64,000 nt of DNA from an uncultured Pelagibacteraceae bacterium (GTDB taxonomy: Bacteria; Pseudomonadota; Alphaproteobacteria; Pelagibacterales; Pelagibacteraceae), in NCBI GenBank assembly GCA_902581445.1, contig CACHOG010000003.1, positions 62,001-126,000 of the forward strand. Direction: 5' to 3'. This document shows, one piece after another, positions 3,754 through 11,297 of this stretch. The notes beneath the pieces were generated by a model. It was not told the DNA's origin. It did no database searches and worked only from the letters and a program-made list of their open reading frames with translations. The translations under genes and the position numbers were made by a program. Each line of letters opens with the position of its first letter. Within the stretch, counting starts at the first letter, position 1.

Positions 3754-4143
3754 ATGAATAAAATACTTGTCGAAGTTTCAATAGGTGAATTATTAGACAA
3801 AATTTCTATCTTAGAAATTAAAAAAGAAAAAATAAAAGATCAAAATAAACTTAAATTTATTAATGAAGAGCTTGAATTATTAATAGAGCAATTTAAAAAA
3901 AATATAAAAACAGACAATAAACTTGATAAGCTTTTTCAGTCACTAAAAGAAATAAACAATAAACTATGGGATATTGAGAATGAAAAAAGATTATGTGAAA
4001 AAAATTTAGACTTTGGTGAAGTTTTTGTTAAAACATCAAGAGATATACATTTTCTAAATGACAAAAGAGGAAAAATTAAGCTCGAAATGAATAATCATAC
4101 TGGATCTAAGATCAGAGAAATTAAAGAGTACACATCATATTAA
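3754..4143 (+). CDS. DUF6165-like protein
   Basis: 129 residues, mostly charged and helical, with a distinctive start (ILVEVSIGELLDKISILEIK) that I recognise from the DUF6165 family. Members are often found beside LPS or capsule glycosyltransferases. No catalytic motif, signal peptide or membrane segment is visible. The Lys/Glu-rich heptad-like stretch through residues 20-75 suggests a coiled coil. The divergent GT9 gene fits the surface-sugar context. Its stop shares bases with the stop of the convergent permease gene (4-bp overlap). Function unknown. Confidence 0.7.
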   Translation: MNKILVEVSIGELLDKISILEIKKEKIKDQNKLKFINEELELLIEQFKKNIKTDNKLDKLFQSLKEINNKLWDIENEKRLCEKNLDFGEVFVKTSRDIHFLNDKRGKIKLEMNNHTGSKIREIKEYTSY

Positions 4144-4811
4144 TAACTATATTTTCTCTCTAAAAACTTTATGACATTATGAATTATGAAGGTCATAAAA
4201 AGATAAATTCCACCAGCAACTATAAAAACTTCAATTGGCTTGAATGTTGTGGATATTATGTATTTGGCTACACCAGTAAGATCCATCAAAGTTACAGTGC
4301 TTGCCAATGAGGTACCTTTCATCATTAAAATTATTTCATTACCGTAAGCTGGCAAAGATTGTCTTATGGCAATTGGAATTTGAATTTTAAAAAAAATAAT
4401 TTTACTCGAAATTCCTAAACTCTGACCCGCTTCAATAATTCCAGGTTTGATTGTTTGAAATGCAGATCGTAATATTTCAGATGTGTAAGCTCCTGTATTC
4501 AATGAAAAAGCAATTATTGCACACCAATAAGGTTCTTTTAAAATAACCCATAACACAGTTGATCTTAAATATTCTATCTGACCTAAGCCAAAATAAATAA
4601 TGAATATTTGTACTAAAAGTGGAGTACCTCTAAATATATAAGAATATCCGTAAGCAAATTTATTTATTATTAGATTTTTATTTACTCTTAAAATTGCAAA
4701 AAAAAGTCCGATAAATAGTCCAAAAATTAATGAAGCAGTTAATAATTTGAGAGTTATTAGAGAAGCATTAAGCAATTTAGGTAAACTACTTATCATTAAT
4801 TCAAAATCCAT
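4140..4811 (-). CDS. Amino-acid ABC transporter permease (HisM/HisQ family, second of pair)
   Basis: 223 residues with about five hydrophobic segments and the cytoplasmic coupling loop (EAGQSLGISSKIIFFKIQIP) of the polar amino-acid permease family. It begins with the His/Glu/Gln/Arg/opine permease N-terminal pattern (LLNASLITLKLLTASLIFGL). The start overlaps the stop of the preceding permease by one base, so the two are translationally coupled and should form a heterodimer. The binding protein lies upstream. Polar or basic amino acids are the likely cargo, from family membership only. No ATPase gene is adjacent. Confidence 0.88.
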   Translation of the reverse strand: MDFELMISSLPKLLNASLITLKLLTASLIFGLFIGLFFAILRVNKNLIINKFAYGYSYIFRGTPLLVQIFIIYFGLGQIEYLRSTVLWVILKEPYWCAIIAFSLNTGAYTSEILRSAFQTIKPGIIEAGQSLGISSKIIFFKIQIPIAIRQSLPAYGNEIILMMKGTSLASTVTLMDLTGVAKYIISTTFKPIEVFIVAGGIYLFMTFIIHNVIKFLERKYSY

Positions 4812-5503
4812 TAATACCCCCTACTGTATCTAATTTCTAATTTATTGATTAACTTCATGCTCAAGTATGTTAGTAGCAGATATAAAACTGCCGCAAATGA
4901 GTAAAAAAATAAAGGATCTCTAGTTGATCCAGCAGCAATGTAAGATTGTCTCATTATTTCGACTAAACCAGTCACAGAGATAAGAGAAGTATCTTTCAAT
5001 GTTATTTGCCAAACGTTGCTCAAGTTAGGAATAGCTAGCCTTAACATTTGAGGCATAATAACTTTAAAAAAATGAATAGGTTTATTTAAGCCTAAAACTT
5101 TTGATGCCTCAAATTGTCCTTTGTCAATTGATTGAATTGCACCTCTGAAAACTTCAGTTGAGTACGCCCCTGAAATAATACCAATAGCAAATGACCCTGT
5201 TATAAATGCGTTAATTTCAATGTATTCATTATATCCAAATATAGATGCTACATACATAACAGCACCACTTCCTCCAAAAAAAAATAAATAGATAACTAAT
5301 AATTCAGGAACTCCTCTTATTACTGTTGTGTAACAATTTCCAATAAGATTTAAAAATTTACTTTTTGATAGTTTAAGTGGAGTAAATATTAAAGCAAAAA
5401 GAAAACCTATAAGCATAGCCGTAATAGATACAGCGATTGTCATCATTGTAGCGATTAGTAGTTCATCGCCCCAACCAGTTTTTCCGAATGAAAGAAGTTC
5501 CAT
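4811..5503 (-). CDS. Amino-acid ABC transporter permease (HisQ/HisM family, first of pair)
   Basis: 230 residues, a polytopic permease with the coupling loop FEASKVLGLNKPIHFFKVIM and the conserved SAYSTEVFRGAIQSI-type segment (here ISGAYSTEVFRGAIQS). It pairs with the downstream permease. Its ATG lies 7 bases after a 10-bp hairpin in the mRNA, with no obvious Shine-Dalgarno between them, so expression may depend on coupling to the upstream binding-protein gene or on local structure. Confidence 0.88.
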   Translation of the reverse strand: MELLSFGKTGWGDELLIATMMTIAVSITAMLIGFLFALIFTPLKLSKSKFLNLIGNCYTTVIRGVPELLVIYLFFFGGSGAVMYVASIFGYNEYIEINAFITGSFAIGIISGAYSTEVFRGAIQSIDKGQFEASKVLGLNKPIHFFKVIMPQMLRLAIPNLSNVWQITLKDTSLISVTGLVEIMRQSYIAAGSTRDPLFFYSFAAVLYLLLTYLSMKLINKLEIRYSRGY

Positions 5504-5504
5504 A

Positions 5505-5540
5505 AAGATTGGCGACTATATATTATAGTCGCCAAATCTT
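5505..5540 (-). other. Intercistronic hairpin between binding-protein and permease genes
   Basis: GGCGACTATA (5511-5520) is perfectly complementary to TATAGTCGCC (5524-5533) with a 3-base loop, and AAGATT/AATCTT extends the stem with one bulge. No U-tract follows on the minus strand. It therefore looks like a processing or mRNA-stability hairpin between a highly expressed binding protein and its permeases, not a full terminator. Confidence 0.7.
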
Positions 5541-5547
5541 AAATTAT

Positions 5548-6375
5548 TTACATAGATGCATCAAAGCCGAACCACTTAGTAGCAATTCTACTAATGTCGC
5601 CGTTCTTTCTTGCTTTGTCGATTGCTTTATTAAAAGCGTTGAGTAACTCTGTGTCGTCTTTTCTTATACCGACACCTACGCCATTACCAAAAGCACCACC
5701 TGAAAATGTTGGTCCAACTAGCACAACTGGTTTACCTGATTTTTCTGCATAATCACTAAAAGCTACAGCTGCAGCTAATGCAGCATCGCATCTTCCTGAT
5801 GCTAAATCTAAGTTTACTTCGTCTTGAGTTTTGTATGTTCTAACATTTACTTTTCCAACATCACCTGAATCTAAGAAGTTTTGATGAATTGTTGCAGTTT
5901 GTACACAAACTGTTTTACCTGCCAAAGCATTTGTAAGCGTTTTAAGTGCTTTTTTTGCGGCAGCATTTGGTTTAGTTAAATTAATTCCAGCTGGTGTATC
6001 CATGCCCTCTAAACTTGAACCTTTCATTACAGCCAATGAAGCAACTTCATCAGCATATCCTTGAGAAAAACTAATTGCTTTTTGTCTTTCAGCAGTAATA
6101 GACATTCCAGCCATTATTGCATCAAATTTTCTCATGATAAGAGCCGGTATCATTCCATCCCAATCTTGCTCAACTATCTCACATTGCTGACCTATATATC
6201 TACAAAGTGTCCAAGCAAGCTCAACCTCAAATCCAATTAGTTTGCCTGAAGCATCTTTTGAATTCCATGGCGGGTATGCACCTTCTGTTCCAATTTTAAT
6301 TTTATCAGCGTTAGCAGAAAATGATAAAAATAAAGTAATCAAAACTCCTAAGCTAAATTTTTTAATAATATTCAT
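5548..6375 (-). CDS. Amino-acid ABC transporter periplasmic binding protein (SBP family 3)
   Basis: 275 residues with a Sec signal peptide (residues 1-23, probable cleavage after SANA). The mature part starts KIKIGTEGAYPPWNSKDASG, the standard opening of cluster-3 binding proteins such as HisJ and ArgT. GFEVELAWTLCRYIGQQCEI and WDGMIPALIMRKFDAIMAGM are the conserved ligand-lobe blocks. Basic or polar amino acids are the most likely ligands. It is preceded by a strong ribosome site (GGAGG, 5 bases before the ATG). A hairpin separates it from the permease pair. Confidence 0.9.
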   Translation of the reverse strand: MNIIKKFSLGVLITLFLSFSANADKIKIGTEGAYPPWNSKDASGKLIGFEVELAWTLCRYIGQQCEIVEQDWDGMIPALIMRKFDAIMAGMSITAERQKAISFSQGYADEVASLAVMKGSSLEGMDTPAGINLTKPNAAAKKALKTLTNALAGKTVCVQTATIHQNFLDSGDVGKVNVRTYKTQDEVNLDLASGRCDAALAAAVAFSDYAEKSGKPVVLVGPTFSGGAFGNGVGVGIRKDDTELLNAFNKAIDKARKNGDISRIATKWFGFDASM

Positions 6376-6432: not shown

Positions 6433-7473
6433 TTATTTATTTAATGAAGATGCAAAATTCCAGGAACAATCAAAACTAGGTATATAAATTCTATCTAAAG
6501 ATGTATTGCCAAAGCTCTTTTCAAATAAATTAAGCCATTTTTTTACCTGTTTAGGTTTTTTATCCTGACTTCCAACTTGTGCTGTTATTGTACCATTGGG
6601 CTTCAAAATTCTTTTAAGTGAATTTATATTTTTTGCTGCAAGATCAATACAATATTGGTCGTCGTTAAGATCTACAAATATTTTATCGTATTTATTATCC
6701 TCAACTTTTTTAATACTTTCAAAAGCATCACCCCAAACGCACTTAACTGAATTTTTTGTTGTAGCTTTTTTGCCAATTTTGGATAAATGTTTTTCACAAA
6801 CTTCGACTACCTCTGGATCAAGTTCAAACCAATCTATATAGTTAAATCCTTGTGATATACATTCTCTTGCCACACCACCGTCTCCACCACCAATGATTGC
6901 AGATTTATCTTTGTGTGGATTTAGTTTAATACCAGAATTAACAAAAGTTGAACTATACAAATGTTCATCACTTTCAGCAACTTGAAGTTCGTTATCAATA
7001 AATAAAGATTTTCCAAATTGTTCAAGGTTTAAAATTTCGATATGTTGACCAACTTTAGAATTGAAATCTTCTAAAACGTCTTTAACTAAATAATATTTCT
7101 TAAGTCCTGGTGAACTATAAATATCATCGTAGTAAATAATGTTATCTCTATTAAATTCTTTTTTAACAATTTTCTTATGTTTAATATCTTTTTTAACAAT
7201 ATCTAAAGCTACAATGGGGTTAACTTTTCCACACGTAAAAAAATCAAAACTTATAATACCTTTTTCAGGAAAAGTATGAAAACTTATATGACTTTCAGCT
7301 AAAAGTGCAACTAAAGTAAAGCCTTGAGGTTCAAATTTGTACTTTGATATTTCTAAAACTGTTACTTTAGCTTTTTTTGCAATTTTGTAGACTAGTTTTT
7401 CAAAGAATTTTGGATCATATTCTTTAATTGTACCTATAATATCTAACGTTATATGTTCACCAACTTTAGTCAT
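6433..7473 (-). CDS. Fused S-adenosylmethionine decarboxylase - spermidine synthase
   Basis: 346 residues joining two polyamine enzymes. Residues 1-115 are a class 1b AdoMet decarboxylase. AESHISFHTFPEKG carries the Glu60-Ser61 self-cleavage site that makes the pyruvoyl cofactor, with His66 and Cys81 at the same offsets (+5, +20) as His68 and Cys83 from Ser63 in the Thermotoga enzyme. Residues ~130-346 are a spermidine synthase: QHIEILNLEQFGKSLFIDNE, the GGGDGGVARE motif, and an acidic strand end (IDWFELDPEVVEVC). It should make decarboxylated AdoMet, transfer aminopropyl to putrescine, and release MTA. Nine bases downstream of the class II aldolase gene, in the MTA-salvage operon. Confidence 0.9.
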   Translation of the reverse strand: MTKVGEHITLDIIGTIKEYDPKFFEKLVYKIAKKAKVTVLEISKYKFEPQGFTLVALLAESHISFHTFPEKGIISFDFFTCGKVNPIVALDIVKKDIKHKKIVKKEFNRDNIIYYDDIYSSPGLKKYYLVKDVLEDFNSKVGQHIEILNLEQFGKSLFIDNELQVAESDEHLYSSTFVNSGIKLNPHKDKSAIIGGGDGGVARECISQGFNYIDWFELDPEVVEVCEKHLSKIGKKATTKNSVKCVWGDAFESIKKVEDNKYDKIFVDLNDDQYCIDLAAKNINSLKRILKPNGTITAQVGSQDKKPKQVKKWLNLFEKSFGNTSLDRIYIPSFDCSWNFASSLNK

Positions 7474-7482
7474 AAAAAAGTT

Positions 7483-8142
7483 TTAGCTTTTTTTATAGTC
7501 CTTTGTTTTGTCTAAAATTTTTCTCATTTCTTCATCCGAAAGAATTTTAGGTTGACCTAACTTTATTGTATTTATGTATTGATGACAAATATTTTCGATC
7601 TCTTCTGCAAGTTCAAATGCCTCACTAAGAGATTTGCCAAATGCAACCTGACCATGATTAGACATAAGGCATGCTTTTCTCTCCTCTAACGCCTTAATAA
7701 TATTTTGAGATAATTCTTTTGTTCCAAATGTTGCGTATTCTGCACATTTAATGTTATTACCACCTGCTAAAGCGACCATATAATGAAATGCAGGGATATT
7801 CTTTCCATGGGCTGAAACCGCTGTGGCATGAGTTGAATGAGCATGAACTATCGCATGAGCATCCCTTTTTTCAATATAAATATCTTGATGAAACCGCCAT
7901 TCTGAAGATGGATTTATAATTTCATCAGAAATTTTTTTTAAATTATTAATTTCGTTCAATTCCAAAAAAACTATATTGTCTGTAGTTATATCATCGTATT
8001 TTACTCCAGAAGGTGTAATAAAGAACCCATCTACTCCTTCATTGATACCTCTAATCGAAATATTCCCAGATCTCAAAGGTGAGAGATTTTTAGTATTAAG
8101 TTTTTTTGCATACTCAATTACTTCCTGCTTTTTATCTAACAT
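7483..8142 (-). CDS. Class II aldolase, FucA-like; candidate 5-methylthioribulose-1-phosphate aldolase
   Basis: 219 residues of the class II aldolase/adducin fold. Catalytic residues are intact: Glu81 in PSSEWRFH, zinc ligands His100 and His102 in VHAHSTHA, and His163 in SNHGQVAFG. The sequence is closer to fuculose-phosphate aldolase than to dehydratase MtnB as I know them. Its place after mtnP and mtnA suggests the DHAP-shunt enzyme (Ald2 of Rhodospirillum), which splits 5-methylthioribulose-1-phosphate into DHAP and 2-methylthioacetaldehyde. MtnB-type dehydration is the main alternative. Its ATG overlaps the previous stop by one base. Confidence 0.8.
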   Translation of the reverse strand: MLDKKQEVIEYAKKLNTKNLSPLRSGNISIRGINEGVDGFFITPSGVKYDDITTDNIVFLELNEINNLKKISDEIINPSSEWRFHQDIYIEKRDAHAIVHAHSTHATAVSAHGKNIPAFHYMVALAGGNNIKCAEYATFGTKELSQNIIKALEERKACLMSNHGQVAFGKSLSEAFELAEEIENICHQYINTIKLGQPKILSDEEMRKILDKTKDYKKS

Positions 8143-8345
8143 TATTTTTTAAGTTTTTTGTTTATTTCTCTCTCACAAAAAGATTTAATGTCATCGATAT
8201 TTTTATTCTTATCTAACTTTTTTTGTGCAATTATGCATCCTTTCATTGATTTATCTAAACTATGAGAACCATATTCAATTCTTGATATATATAACATAAC
8301 AAAAGCAATAATCAGAAATAATATAAAGTATAAATTTTTTTTCAT
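8142..8345 (-). CDS. Small single-pass membrane protein of the MTA-salvage operon
   Basis: 67 residues: a Lys-rich start, one hydrophobic helix (LYFILFLIIAFVMLYI, residues 5-20), then a charged tail with two cysteines (KGCIIAQ and KSFCERE). I do not recognise the family. It overlaps mtnA by 4 bases (ATGA) and the aldolase start by one base, so it is translated as part of the operon. The tail could be periplasmic with a disulfide, or the helix could be an uncleaved signal anchor. Its role in MTA salvage, if any, is unknown. Confidence 0.6.
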   Translation of the reverse strand: MKKNLYFILFLIIAFVMLYISRIEYGSHSLDKSMKGCIIAQKKLDKNKNIDDIKSFCEREINKKLKK

Positions 8346-9412
8346 TTAAATAAATTTTTTAGTCCTGCAGTTGATGCTTCACAAATTCCTTTTTCTGTAA
8401 TTAAACCAGTAATATATTTTGCAGGAGTAACATCAAAAGCTAAATTCATTGCTTTACTTTTTTTTGGATAAATTCGAATTTTTTTAAAATTACCATCATC
8501 ATCTAATCCTTCGATATGAGATAATTCATCAGAATTTCTCTCCTCAATGGGAATATCTTTATGGTCTTTAATTTTCCAGTCAATTGTAGAACTGGGTAAT
8601 GCTACATAAAAAGGAATATTATTATCTTTTGCTGCCAAAGCTTTTAGATAAGTGCCAATTTTATTACATACATCTCCGTTTGATAAAGTTCTGTCTGTTC
8701 CAACAATACACATATCGACTTTTCCTCGTTGCATTAATAATCCTCCTGTATTATCTGCAATTACTGTATTTGGTACATGTTCTTCATTAAGCTCAAATGA
8801 TGTAAGGTTTGCTCCTTGATTTCTTGGTCTTGTTTCATCCACCCATACATGCAGGGGAATTCCTTTCTTGTGTGCCTGATATATAGGAGAGGTTGCTGTT
8901 CCCCAATTTATTGTAGCAAGCCATCCAGCATTACAATGTGTTAAAATATTAACAGTATTTTTTTTTTTATTGTGAATTTCCTCAATTATTTTAAGACCAT
9001 TTAATCCAATGTTTTCACAAAATTTTACATCTTCCTCACAAATTTCTTTTGCTTCATTTAAAGCGATTTCAAAAATTTTATCACTATTAACCCCTGATAT
9101 TTTTTTCATCATTCTATCAACAGCCCATTTTAAATTTATTGCTGTGGGTCTTGATTTAATTAAATTATTTGCTGAGTTTTTCAAAAAAGATTGATCCTTA
9201 TTTTCTAAAATAGATAGTACAAGTCCATAAGCAGCTGTAGCGCCTATCAAAGGTGCACCTCTCACCTCCATTGTTTTAATCGCATTTATTGCATCCTCTA
9301 TAGTTTTGAGATCCTTGATTAAGAATCTATGTGGAAGTTTTGTTTGATCAATTATTTTTACAATATTATTTTCAAACCAGATTGTACGATATTCCTTTGA
9401 CTCAATTTTCAT
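8342..9412 (-). CDS. mtnA: Methylthioribose-1-phosphate isomerase
   Basis: 356 residues, full length for MtnA. The catalytic Cys160 (ILTHCNAGWLAT) and Asp240 (IVGTDRTLSNGDVCNKIGTY) fall at the same numbers as in the Bacillus enzyme. RGAPLIGATAAYGL and DETRPRNQGANLTSFEL are further MtnA blocks that separate it from eIF2B-type ribose-1,5-bisphosphate isomerases. It converts 5-methylthioribose-1-phosphate to 5-methylthioribulose-1-phosphate, linking MtnP upstream to the class II aldolase downstream. It overlaps the GFA-family gene by 11 bases. Confidence 0.95.
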   Translation of the reverse strand: MKIESKEYRTIWFENNIVKIIDQTKLPHRFLIKDLKTIEDAINAIKTMEVRGAPLIGATAAYGLVLSILENKDQSFLKNSANNLIKSRPTAINLKWAVDRMMKKISGVNSDKIFEIALNEAKEICEEDVKFCENIGLNGLKIIEEIHNKKKNTVNILTHCNAGWLATINWGTATSPIYQAHKKGIPLHVWVDETRPRNQGANLTSFELNEEHVPNTVIADNTGGLLMQRGKVDMCIVGTDRTLSNGDVCNKIGTYLKALAAKDNNIPFYVALPSSTIDWKIKDHKDIPIEERNSDELSHIEGLDDDGNFKKIRIYPKKSKAMNLAFDVTPAKYITGLITEKGICEASTAGLKNLFK

Positions 9413-9863
9413 TTTTAATTCTATCTAAGCTTTTTTTAGGCCAAATTTTATCTCTGTTGTAGAATTTATCATAACAGATTTTTTTATCTGCTATTTCTAT
9501 CCATGGATCTTTATCTTTTATAAAGATATGTGCTTGTGGTGTAATTGGATTTACTAGAGTTTGAGTTCTGATAGCAATTCTACCTTCAGAAATGTTATAT
9601 TTACAGTAAACATAAACACCACAAATAATACAAAAATACGCATTTACGCCCTTTCCACTTCCTGTCGGTAATTCTATAGAGGCGACATCCCCTTTGACTT
9701 CTAAATCTTTATCTAAGACCATAGTGTGAATAACGAAAGATGATCCTGTAGAAATTTTACAATCTTTACAATGACAGGCTTGAGTAAATAACGGTTCATC
9801 TTTAACGATGTACTTTACATTTCCACACCCACATTGACCTTTCAATTCTTTTTTATTTGTCAT
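9402..9863 (-). CDS. GFA-family (glutathione-dependent formaldehyde-activating-like) protein
   Basis: 153 residues with the zinc-binding cysteine pattern of the GFA/CENP-V family: GQCGCGNVKY (residues 9-18), ACHCKDCKISTGSSF (29-43) and AYFCIICGVY near residue 80. Gfa binds glutathione and forms S-hydroxymethylglutathione, though many relatives have no tested activity. Here it sits between mtnP and mtnA with 4- and 11-base overlaps, which is unusual. I infer it might handle an aldehyde such as 2-methylthioacetaldehyde; nothing in the sequence proves this. Confidence 0.85.
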   Translation of the reverse strand: MTNKKELKGQCGCGNVKYIVKDEPLFTQACHCKDCKISTGSSFVIHTMVLDKDLEVKGDVASIELPTGSGKGVNAYFCIICGVYVYCKYNISEGRIAIRTQTLVNPITPQAHIFIKDKDPWIEIADKKICYDKFYNRDKIWPKKSLDRIKNEN

Positions 9864-10729
9864 TTACCCAAAACTCTTCCCGCTATAAATTTAAGTTTAT
9901 TTTTAGTTTTTTCGGTCCTTTTTTCTGGAGCGGTTATGATTGCAACATCTAAACAATTATTAGTTGGATCATTACGCTCAATGCTGCTTTCATAACAATC
10001 TATTAAATTTTTAATCATGTCTTTTGCCTTAGCAGCGTTTTCTAAGAGGACTTTAATCACTTTCTGAACATCAACATTTTCATGATCTGGATGCCAACAA
10101 TCATAATCTGTAACCATTGATACTGATGCATATCTAATTTCTGCCTCTCTTGCTAATTTTGCTTCTGGCATGTTTGTCATTCCAATAACATCGGCTTTCC
10201 AGCTTCTGTATAAATTAGATTCGGCTAGTGTTGAAAATTGTGGCCCTTCCATAACTACGTAGGTTCCACCTCTTTGATAATCTATGCCAGATTTTTTGAT
10301 AGACTCTTCGCAAGCATTCATAAGACCATTTGAAGTAGGATGAGCCATTGAGACATGAGCAACTATCTCGTCGTCAAAAAAGGTTTTATTTCTAGCAAAT
10401 GTACAATCAATAAATTGATCTACAATTACAAATTTTCCTGGCGGTAAATTTTCTTTTAGAGATCCTACTGCAGAAATTGATACAATATCTGATACACCGA
10501 GTTGTTTAAGGGCGTCAATGTTTGCCCTAAAATTAATTTTTGAAGGTGAAATATAATGTCCTCTTCCATGTCTTGGTAAGAAATAAATCTCTTTATCATT
10601 ATATTTAGTTTTTAATATTTTATCAGATGGGCTTCCCCAAGAAGTTCTTATGTCTAAAAATTCTTTATCTTGAAATTCCTCTATGTCATACAAACCACTT
10701 CCACCGATAATTGCTAATTTATTTGTCAT
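9860..10729 (-). CDS. mtnP: S-methyl-5'-thioadenosine phosphorylase
   Basis: 289 residues of the PNP/MTAP phosphorylase family: IIGGSGLYDIEEF at the start, the phosphate-site block PRHGRGHYISPSKINFRANI, and VVMEGPQFSTLAES before IGMTNMPEAKLAREAE, typical of MTA phosphorylase. It converts MTA, the spermidine synthase by-product, to adenine and 5-methylthioribose-1-phosphate. The purine site reads VTDYDCWHP (Asp-x-Asp), as expected for 6-amino purines. First gene of the coupled operon. Apt, which reuses adenine, starts 40 bases away on the other strand. Confidence 0.95.
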   Translation of the reverse strand: MTNKLAIIGGSGLYDIEEFQDKEFLDIRTSWGSPSDKILKTKYNDKEIYFLPRHGRGHYISPSKINFRANIDALKQLGVSDIVSISAVGSLKENLPPGKFVIVDQFIDCTFARNKTFFDDEIVAHVSMAHPTSNGLMNACEESIKKSGIDYQRGGTYVVMEGPQFSTLAESNLYRSWKADVIGMTNMPEAKLAREAEIRYASVSMVTDYDCWHPDHENVDVQKVIKVLLENAAKAKDMIKNLIDCYESSIERNDPTNNCLDVAIITAPEKRTEKTKNKLKFIAGRVLGK

Positions 10730-10769
10730 ATTATTTAAAATGCTTTATTTATTTATAACTTAAAAATTT

Positions 10770-11297
10770 ATGGATTTAAAAGATTATATAAGGTCAATCC
10801 CCGATTATCCAAAAAAGGGAATTTTATTTAGAGATATCACGACCTTAATTGAAGATGAAAAAGCATTTGCACATTGTATAAATTTAATATTTCAAAAATC
10901 TCAAAGTTTTAGGTTTGATAAAATTGCAGCAATAGAGTCTAGAGGATTTGTATTTGCATCTGCCGTATCATATTTAGCTAAGAAACCTTTTGTGATGCTT
11001 AGAAAAAAGAATAAACTACCTTCCGAAACACACTCTGTTGACTTTGAACTTGAGTATGGAAAAGCAACAATTGAAGTGCATAAAGACTCCATAAAAAAAA
11101 ATGACAAAGTATTAATTATCGATGATTTGATTGCAACTGGTGGGACTGCTGAAGCAGCGGCAAAACTTGTAAATATATCTAATGGAAGTGTTGCGGGATT
11201 TATTTTTGTAATAAATTTATTTGATTTAGGTGGATGTGATAATTTGAAGAAACATAATTACAAAGTTGAAAATTTAATTGAATTTCCTGGGCACTAA
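10770..11297 (+). CDS. apt: Adenine phosphoribosyltransferase
   Basis: 175 residues, normal for bacterial Apt. It has the opening IRSIPDYPKKGILFRDIT, the base-side motif AAIESRGFVFASAVSYLA, and the PRPP-binding loop VLIIDDLIATGGTAEAA (about residues 113-129). It makes AMP from adenine and PRPP. It is divergent from mtnP and would reclaim the adenine MtnP releases, which fits the neighbourhood. Its 3' end overlaps the convergent GT2 gene by 4 bases. Confidence 0.95.
   Translation: MDLKDYIRSIPDYPKKGILFRDITTLIEDEKAFAHCINLIFQKSQSFRFDKIAAIESRGFVFASAVSYLAKKPFVMLRKKNKLPSETHSVDFELEYGKATIEVHKDSIKKNDKVLIIDDLIATGGTAEAAAKLVNISNGSVAGFIFVINLFDLGGCDNLKKHNYKVENLIEFPGH

Follow-up and report, generated by a model that had tools for sequence, protein, structure and literature searches.

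A spermidine gene cluster with a probable dihydroxyacetone phosphate shunt in SAR11 bacteria, and an aldolase that appears to have been exchanged repeatedly

The core of the pathway considered here, a dihydroxyacetone phosphate (DHAP) shunt with its aldolases, is already known, and so is the SpeDE fusion of S-adenosylmethionine (AdoMet) decarboxylase (AdoMetDC) to spermidine synthase. North is said to have set out the MtnP-type DHAP shunt of Rhodospirillum rubrum in PNAS in 2017, and Green reportedly described the AdoMetDC-spermidine synthase fusion of SAR11 in 2011. SAR11 bacteria depend on reduced sulfur. They account for most of the ocean's bacteria, and their fusion enzyme has been described together with its broad substrate range (PMC8437039, its reference 69). 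An aerobic MtnP-type DHAP shunt exists in Rhodopseudomonas palustris (PMC5893883). Here we analyse a stretch of 64,000 nucleotides (the window), which is part of contig 3 of an uncultured Pelagibacteraceae genome (1.14 Mb in 18 contigs, 84.84% complete). We consider it likely that a gene cluster at positions 6433-11297 makes spermidine and disposes of the toxic 5'-methylthioadenosine (MTA) released on the way through an MtnP-type DHAP shunt. What is new is the conserved link of these genes to speDE in Pelagibacteraceae, and the repeated replacement of the aldolase, which we call ALD, by an aldolase/dehydrogenase fusion. Searches of open-licence PubMed Central papers turned up no published account of SAR11 carrying a DHAP shunt, of the shunt genes being joined to speDE, or of the fusion being linked to mtnA or taking part in the shunt.

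The cluster is made up as follows (window positions; profile scores with cut-offs).

10770-11297, plus strand: apt, adenine phosphoribosyltransferase (TIGR01090, 198.0 bits; cut-off 185.85)
9860-10729, minus strand: mtnP, S-methyl-5'-thioadenosine phosphorylase (TIGR01694, 304.6 bits; cut-off 274.85)
9402-9863, minus strand: GFA-domain protein of 153 amino acids (PF04828, 86.7 bits)
8342-9412, minus strand: mtnA, 5-methylthioribose-1-phosphate isomerase (TIGR00512, 426.5 bits; cut-off 279)
8142-8345, minus strand: open reading frame (ORF) of 67 amino acids, with one hydrophobic N-terminal stretch (judged by eye), overlapping both neighbours
7483-8142, minus strand: ALD, class II (FucA-type) aldolase, predicted 5-methylthioribulose-1-phosphate aldolase (PF00596, 174.4 bits; cut-off 22.2)
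6433-7473, minus strand: speDE, speD-speE fusion, AdoMetDC and aminopropyltransferase (TIGR03330 and PF01564)

The MTA phosphorylase and the 5-methylthioribose-1-phosphate isomerase of an MtnP-type shunt are both matched over cut-off (TIGR01694 and TIGR00512). A preliminary description of this stretch had named a fused AdoMetDC-spermidine synthase, and a single chain does carry both domains: SpeD at residues 4-109 (TIGR03330, 94.2 bits; cut-off 75.65) and SpeE at residues 170-338 (PF01564, 75.1 bits), the chain falling below the full-length SpeE equivalog cut-off (94.4 versus 249.55 bits). The divergent apt of that description was also confirmed; 40 bp separate the starts of apt and mtnP. Its overlapping order of MtnP, MtnA and aldolase stood in part. 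The genes do overlap, by 4, 11, 4 and 1 bp along mtnP, the GFA gene, mtnA, the 67-residue ORF and ALD, but they are not directly consecutive, as the GFA gene and the ORF intervene. ALD and speDE are spaced by 9 bp. A scan of the minus strand from 10729 to 6433 found no terminator-like site, so that a single transcript from mtnP to speDE is plausible.

In the route that we propose, SpeDE would decarboxylate AdoMet, move the aminopropyl group to a diamine and free MTA. MtnP would phosphorolyse MTA to adenine, recovered by the divergent Apt, and 5-methylthioribose-1-phosphate, which MtnA would isomerise to 5-methylthioribulose-1-phosphate (MTRu-1-P). ALD would then split MTRu-1-P into DHAP and 2-methylthioacetaldehyde. 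Most likely the aldehyde would be reduced to methylthioethanol and then yield methanethiol for MetY; in air, R. palustris makes methanethiol from this intermediate (PMC5893883), and for the reducing enzyme that paper names no more than a putative alcohol dehydrogenase. 5'-Deoxyadenosine is probably a substrate of these enzymes as well. What we observe is the gene content and order, the protein families, the conserved catalytic residues and linkage, and the absence of rival routes at curated cut-offs; the reactions and the fate of the aldehyde are inferred, the steps from established work on these families (PMC5893883, PMC10986504, PMC6079011) and from the catalytic residues.

ALD belongs to the FucA type of class II aldolases, keeps the catalytic Glu and the His residues that bind the metal, and is linked to mtnA. 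An alignment of 21 relatives shows no variation at Glu81, His100, His102 or His163, which share their columns with Glu73 and the three His metal ligands of FucA. The predicted structure (mean predicted local distance difference test score, pLDDT, 89.9) matches the fold of E. coli FucA (1dzz; Z 31.6, root-mean-square deviation (rmsd) 1.4, 205 residues aligned), with Bacillus thuringiensis DrdA close behind (6btg; Z 30.7, rmsd 2.0, 205 aligned, 35% identity) and the human MtnB, APIP, lower (4m6r; Z 22.2, rmsd 3.1, 199 aligned). The comparison of the aldolase with MtnB that the preliminary description had proposed gave no grouping with these dehydratases by score, alignment or tree. ALD scores 60.5 bits on the MtnB profile (cut-off 137.05) and is 17-23% identical to five MtnBs; all five have a GxExxK stretch where ALD and FucA show IPAxHYM. 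An aldolase tree of 82 rows separates MtnB from the rest with 100/100 support, on a branch of 3.4 changes per column. That tree keeps 21 of 36 SAR11 rows; the MtnB rows L235 and L238 were dropped, and three further MtnB loci (L239-L241), which had no match to ALD, are absent from it. Because the bootstrap had not settled and AraD lies inside the ingroup, we use only the MtnB split, the pairing of the E. coli Ald2-type protein with FucA, and the separation of SAR11 from the FucA clade. The SAR11 ALD rows fall outside the FucA-containing clade, among aldolases most of which have mtnA as a neighbour. The window genome encodes another two class II aldolases on contig 1 (L261 and L262), of 247 and 234 amino acids by open frame and both distant from ALD.

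Sequence alone cannot separate MTRu-1-P aldolases from FucA. PF00596 E-values do not set ALD apart from other class II aldolases, and sequence identity failed as a discriminator between Ald2 and FucA: the Ald2-type protein of E. coli KE47 is itself a FucA relative, 58% identical to E. coli FucA and paired with it 100/100 in the tree. The KE47 gene order, mtnK-mtnA-aldolase, is that reported for ATCC 25922 (PMC10986504). Our comparison with Ald2-type proteins covered that of KE47. With this protein closer to FucA than to ALD, aldolases for MTRu-1-P appear to have evolved on more than one occasion from ancestors resembling FucA.

The competing routes were surveyed in 147 Pelagibacterales genomes, the window's own included, by profile search at curated cut-offs. 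MtnC, MtnD, MtnK and fucose isomerase (FucI) were each over cut-off in 0 of 147, as was the RuBisCO-like protein that would mark an MTA-isoprenoid shunt. MtnB, sought in a set of 289 alphaproteobacteria, was over cut-off in ten, and neither in the window genome nor in the two other Pelagibacteraceae of that set; at least four of the ten MtnB-positive genomes (G185, G244, G312 and G408) also have an ALD relative. At these cut-offs the window's genome shows neither the markers of universal methionine salvage (MtnB; MtnC with MtnD) nor the FucI of L-fucose catabolism, and ALD falls short of a FucA equivalog score. Weaker matches do occur. Those to MtnK, in 80 of 147 genomes including the window's own, reach at best 35 of 275 bits in frames mostly of 310-330 amino acids, and we read them as probable other kinases; those to MtnC, in 55 of 147, reach 24.5 of 128.1 bits and are read as probable haloacid dehalogenase (HAD)-type hydrolases; MtnD has one weak match in the 147. 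MtnA itself is found in 80 of 147 genomes, and in 77 of 105 among those of high quality. The preliminary description had seen no kinase, MtnC or MtnD, which holds at curated cut-offs in the window's own, incomplete genome and in its 146 relatives, and it had judged the DHAP shunt a better fit than universal methionine salvage. Of the refuting outcomes that it had named, neither an mtnBCD set at curated cut-offs in the window's genome nor a grouping of the aldolase with MtnB turned up. We agree with its reading: the shunt is well supported because ALD is not MtnB and because none of the 147 genomes has MtnC, MtnD, MtnK, the RuBisCO-like protein or FucI over cut-off.

Linkage adds to this picture. 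ALD lies on the contig of mtnA in 62 of the 64 mtnA genomes without a fusion aldolase, and within 500 bp of it in 58 of the 62. The contig of G144 ends at about the expected start of ALD; that of G141 ends some 198 bp past mtnA, with no ALD or fusion matched there, and this genome has one weak class II aldolase match (E 5e-15). In G036, ALD and speDE stand at a contig start and no mtnA was found. Moreover, speDE starts -4 to 138 bp after ALD in 34 of 34 SAR11 rows with ALD (the window, L075-L106 and L232, of genera g1, g2 and g5; the speDE of L081 is cut by the contig end), and mtnA is within 350 bp of ALD in 29 of the 33 rows that hold both, overlapping it in 21. Counted over 80 named relatives, speDE is seen at 69; the 11 where it is not seen are all ten not titled Pelagibacteraceae or Pelagibacter and one Pelagibacteraceae locus. 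Nor is speDE seen at 20 other alphaproteobacterial loci (L115-L134); in all, the join of ALD to speDE was found at 0 of 30 loci checked outside SAR11. The ALD-speDE join is thus seen only in SAR11, and the mtnA-ALD pairing is wider: outside the order, 27 of 37 fetched alphaproteobacterial ALD relatives are within 1.5 kb of mtnA, and three are that close to mtnP only. The apt gene is divergent at mtnP in most SAR11 loci. Several alphaproteobacteria have it between mtnP and mtnA, and in two relatives within the order it is the first gene of the operon, co-directional with the others.

Several observations weigh against the shunt as we propose it. ALD is closer to E. coli FucA (42% identity) than to the Ald2-type protein of KE47 (36%), so that its substrate rests on context. 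For the remaining seven of the 37 alphaproteobacterial ALD relatives, no mtnA or mtnP lies within 1.5 kb, and the family is therefore not confined to an MTA role. Finally, the window's own genome is no more than 84.84% complete.

A second line of evidence comes from genomes in which ALD is missing. A fusion of 674-677 amino acids, whose class II aldolase is a distant relative of ALD, occurs in 16 of the 147 Pelagibacterales (for example L111:5590-7623). In the one protein scanned against Pfam, the aldolase domain is N-terminal and the C-terminal domain is a short-chain dehydrogenase. The two of these 16 that were scanned score 904.3 and 796.2 bits on NF006192, over its cut-off of 639, and 444.1 and 458.0 bits on TIGR02632, below its cut-off of 567.75. 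All 16 fusion genomes have mtnA, compared with 64 of the 131 others (Fisher p 3e-5), and none has ALD, compared with 62 of the 64 other mtnA genomes (Fisher p 6e-15; neither value is corrected for kinship). The 24 class II aldolase matches in the fusion genomes comprise the 16 fusions and eight others, which are not ALD because they are only 22-30% identical to it, with at most 61 bits.

The fusion gene also sits where ALD would. It lies within 50 bp of mtnA in 12 of 16 genomes, and 14 of the 16 have the two genes no more than 3 kb apart. The exceptions are G088, with a distance of 9 kb, and G121, with the genes on different contigs; in both of these the fusion gene is 85 bp from speDE. In three genomes of a sister family the fusion is co-directional with mtnA and overlaps it by 1 to 11 bp. 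In Pelagibacteraceae it is antisense, and all 10 of the loci fetched place it -19 to 99 bp from speDE; being antisense, it is outside the mtnP-mtnA transcript, and the operon argument is weakened for those genomes. Two pairs of genomes come near to an exact swap: G074 (ALD) and G088 (fusion) have the same insert between mtnA and the aldolase, and so do G131 (ALD) and G133 (fusion).

On an mtnA tree of 46 rows, the type of aldolase changes at least nine times, and five of these changes are forced by well-supported branches. Labels were available for 44 rows (G121 from a second contig; L225 and L231 are unlabelled), and L104 and L233, shorter than 300 amino acids, were dropped. The label is scarcely clustered on this tree (nine changes, where shuffled labels give 10.7 on average), support is weak for 16 inner branches, and recombination at the locus could raise the number of switches. 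As far as the tree can record it, ALD has repeatedly been displaced by the fusion at the same place, with at least five switches forced.

Homologues of the fusion extend beyond SAR11. Among the best 20 plasmid records, all from Rhizobiales, at least 16 have mtnA within about 6 kb of the fusion (14 by comparison of the fusion and mtnA match lists, two by inspection of fetched loci), the distance being 5-6 kb on the plasmids of L267-L270, L278 and L279. Four annotated records, from Pararhizobium, Agrobacterium, Shinella and Mariluticola, were chosen for having both matches; each has a sugar-type ATP-binding cassette (ABC) transporter and mtnK between the fusion and mtnA. In three of the four, a transketolase-like pair and a RuBisCO-like protein follow mtnA. 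In a 23-row fusion tree the SAR11 proteins, the mtnA-linked Rhizobiales proteins, two others and two rhamnose copies form one clade each. The two rhamnose-linked homologues, at about 30% identity to the fusion, are on a branch of 2.6 changes per column.

We lean, at somewhat better than even confidence, towards reading the mtnA-linked fusion as a bifunctional enzyme, an MTRu-1-P (and 5-deoxyribulose-1-phosphate) aldolase joined to an aldehyde dehydrogenase/reductase, which displaces ALD in SAR11 and serves the mtnK-mtnA version of the pathway in Rhizobiales. This predicts that aldol cleavage is coupled to a redox step, with methylthioacetaldehyde either oxidised or reduced: in genomes that have the fusion instead of ALD, the dehydrogenase domain of the fusion could take on the aldehyde immediately. 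If so, one chain would both cleave the sugar phosphate and remove a reactive sulfur aldehyde, and the enzyme after the aldolase step would have a name. Some records speak against it. The 16 kb fetched for two fusion homologues, at 41.7% and 40.1% identity, contains no mtnA; the plasmid matches H72, H79 and H53 have mtnA without an aldolase or fusion nearby in the stretch shown; and H1, H6, H9 and H25 have a FucA-type aldolase without mtnA. Sinorhizobium medicae has an mtnK-mtnA cluster and no fusion in the stretch shown.

The fate of the sulfur bears on what the cluster means for these cells. The preliminary description had MTA sulfur leaving as methylthioacetaldehyde or methylthioethanol. This is not required. 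MetY is over cut-off in 128 of 147 Pelagibacterales, so methanethiol, which R. palustris makes (PMC5893883), could return to methionine, and the sulfur need not be lost. The window's own genome has a weak MetY match only (E 5e-7), perhaps owing to its incompleteness. If our reading of the cluster is right, each spermidine made would release DHAP, adenine and a methylthio aldehyde, and SAR11 would have a possible source of methylthioethanol or methanethiol besides dimethylsulfoniopropionate. The repeated aldolase swap would in turn serve as an evolutionary test of the aldol-cleavage step and provide a candidate enzyme for the aldehyde step.

The alternative that survives best, though we regard it as unlikely, is that the three genes mainly serve to remove the 5'-deoxyadenosine that radical SAM enzymes produce. 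MtnP and MtnA would then work on the deoxy compounds, and the aldolase would yield DHAP and acetaldehyde as in the drd pathway. Beaudoin et al. read clusters of a kinase or phosphorylase, an isomerase and a FucA-like aldolase, in six phyla, as serving 5-deoxyribose disposal (PMC6079011), and this too counts against the shunt that we favour. DrdA acts on 5-deoxyribulose-1-phosphate (PMC6079011), and its fold match to ALD is nearly equal to that of FucA (Z 30.7). However, ALD is within 140 bp of the MTA-making enzyme in 34 of 34 SAR11 rows. The B. thuringiensis enzymes, moreover, also convert methylthioribose to DHAP (PMC6079011), so that the deoxyadenosine and MTA readings are not mutually exclusive.

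We find it very improbable that ALD is an ordinary L-fuculose-1-phosphate (or ribulose-1-phosphate) aldolase that lies in the cluster by chance. Its top NCBIfam scores are indeed for FucA models (198.8 bits) and ribulose-1-phosphate aldolase (166.4 bits), in keeping with its identity to E. coli FucA, but both are under their cut-offs (264 and 300), ALD stands outside the FucA clade in the tree, and mtnA and speDE are its neighbours in the mapped SAR11 loci. A fucose pathway was rejected because no FucI is over cut-off in the 147 genomes. Slighter still is the chance that MtnP and Apt serve general purine salvage, with the pentose phosphate handled incidentally. Such a broad role for MTA phosphorylase and Apt has been proposed for Prochlorococcus (PMC11698098), and the positions of apt, divergent here and between mtnP and mtnA in several alphaproteobacteria, would suit it; yet it leaves mtnA, the aldolase and speDE in the cluster unexplained. 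We give next to no credence to the idea that ALD is a divergent MtnB and acts in universal methionine salvage, which depends on oxygen: MtnB shares a superfamily with ALD, and mtnP and mtnA are neighbours common to both pathways, but this identity was rejected on score, motif and tree, and MtnC and MtnD are lacking in all 147 genomes at their cut-offs.

Other features of the locus vary more. The GFA gene is confined to close relatives (3 of 80 named relatives by gene-architecture count). Elsewhere the gap between mtnP and mtnA holds PhyH (one genome scanned), an ORF with a marginal hydrolase match (another), other ORFs or nothing; because its content differs in this way, GFA was rejected as a pathway enzyme. 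The 67-residue ORF had no match in a Pfam scan at E 1e-4, and some other genomes have an unrelated-looking hydrophobic ORF of 107-113 amino acids in its slot. An insert of about 9 kb lies between mtnA and the aldolase in four genomes (L094, L225, L227 and L228-L229); it includes sulfatase, FAA hydrolase, BKACE, FAD-binding and glyoxalase-family genes (Pfam, L225 and L227 only) and, by eye, TRAP-like transporter genes. A second recurrent insert at this junction (L092 and L226) encodes, by a scan of L226, a DUF1015 protein and an enzyme of the PALP family. In SAR11, the junctions of mtnA with mtnP and with the aldolase look like insertion hot spots.

Downstream of speDE the window continues with transporter genes.

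5548-6375, minus strand: ABC substrate-binding protein of polar amino-acid type, next after speDE (PF00497, 129 bits)
4811-5503, minus strand: ABC permease (PF00528)
4140-4811, minus strand: ABC permease (PF00528)

Within the window's genus, most of the loci fetched have the substrate-binding gene next to speDE on its downstream side, L082 being an exception; the gene had no match in the g2 and g5 loci L102-L106. A 12-pair hairpin lies on the minus strand at 5509-5535, between this gene and the first permease gene. A riboswitch search of the window gave none at gathering scores, a tRNA being the sole RNA match, and a promoter scan found 46 sites where 47.4 were expected.

How does the cluster compare with known systems? 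The B. thuringiensis drdK-drdI-drdA cluster shares an isomerase and a FucA-like aldolase with it, but is kinase-based and was assigned to 5'-deoxyadenosine disposal (PMC6079011). The MtnK-type shunt of extraintestinal E. coli (mtnK-mtnA-ald2; PMC10986504) likewise has a FucA-type aldolase, and the MtnA of KE47 is 58% identical. KE47, however, uses a kinase (TIGR01767, 522.5 bits) where SAR11 has a phosphorylase, and its aldolase, being paired with E. coli FucA 100/100, is not an ortholog of ALD. RhaD-ADH fusions (TIGR02632) have the same architecture as the SAR11 fusion of 674-677 amino acids, which differs in scoring below that cut-off, in being linked to mtnA or speDE rather than to rhamnose genes, and in standing in a clade separate from the rhamnose copies. 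The account of the SpeDE fusion in PMC8437039 mentions MTA once in its main text, in a figure legend, and that text has no word starting with 'salvage' or 'phosphorylase'. The closest counterparts are the MtnP-type DHAP shunts of R. rubrum and R. palustris, which have the same three predicted activities and no kinase step. R. palustris has two RuBisCO-like proteins (PMC5893883), compared with 0 of 147 genomes in SAR11, and the SAR11 genes differ from both shunts in their physical link to the MTA-producing enzyme of polyamine synthesis.

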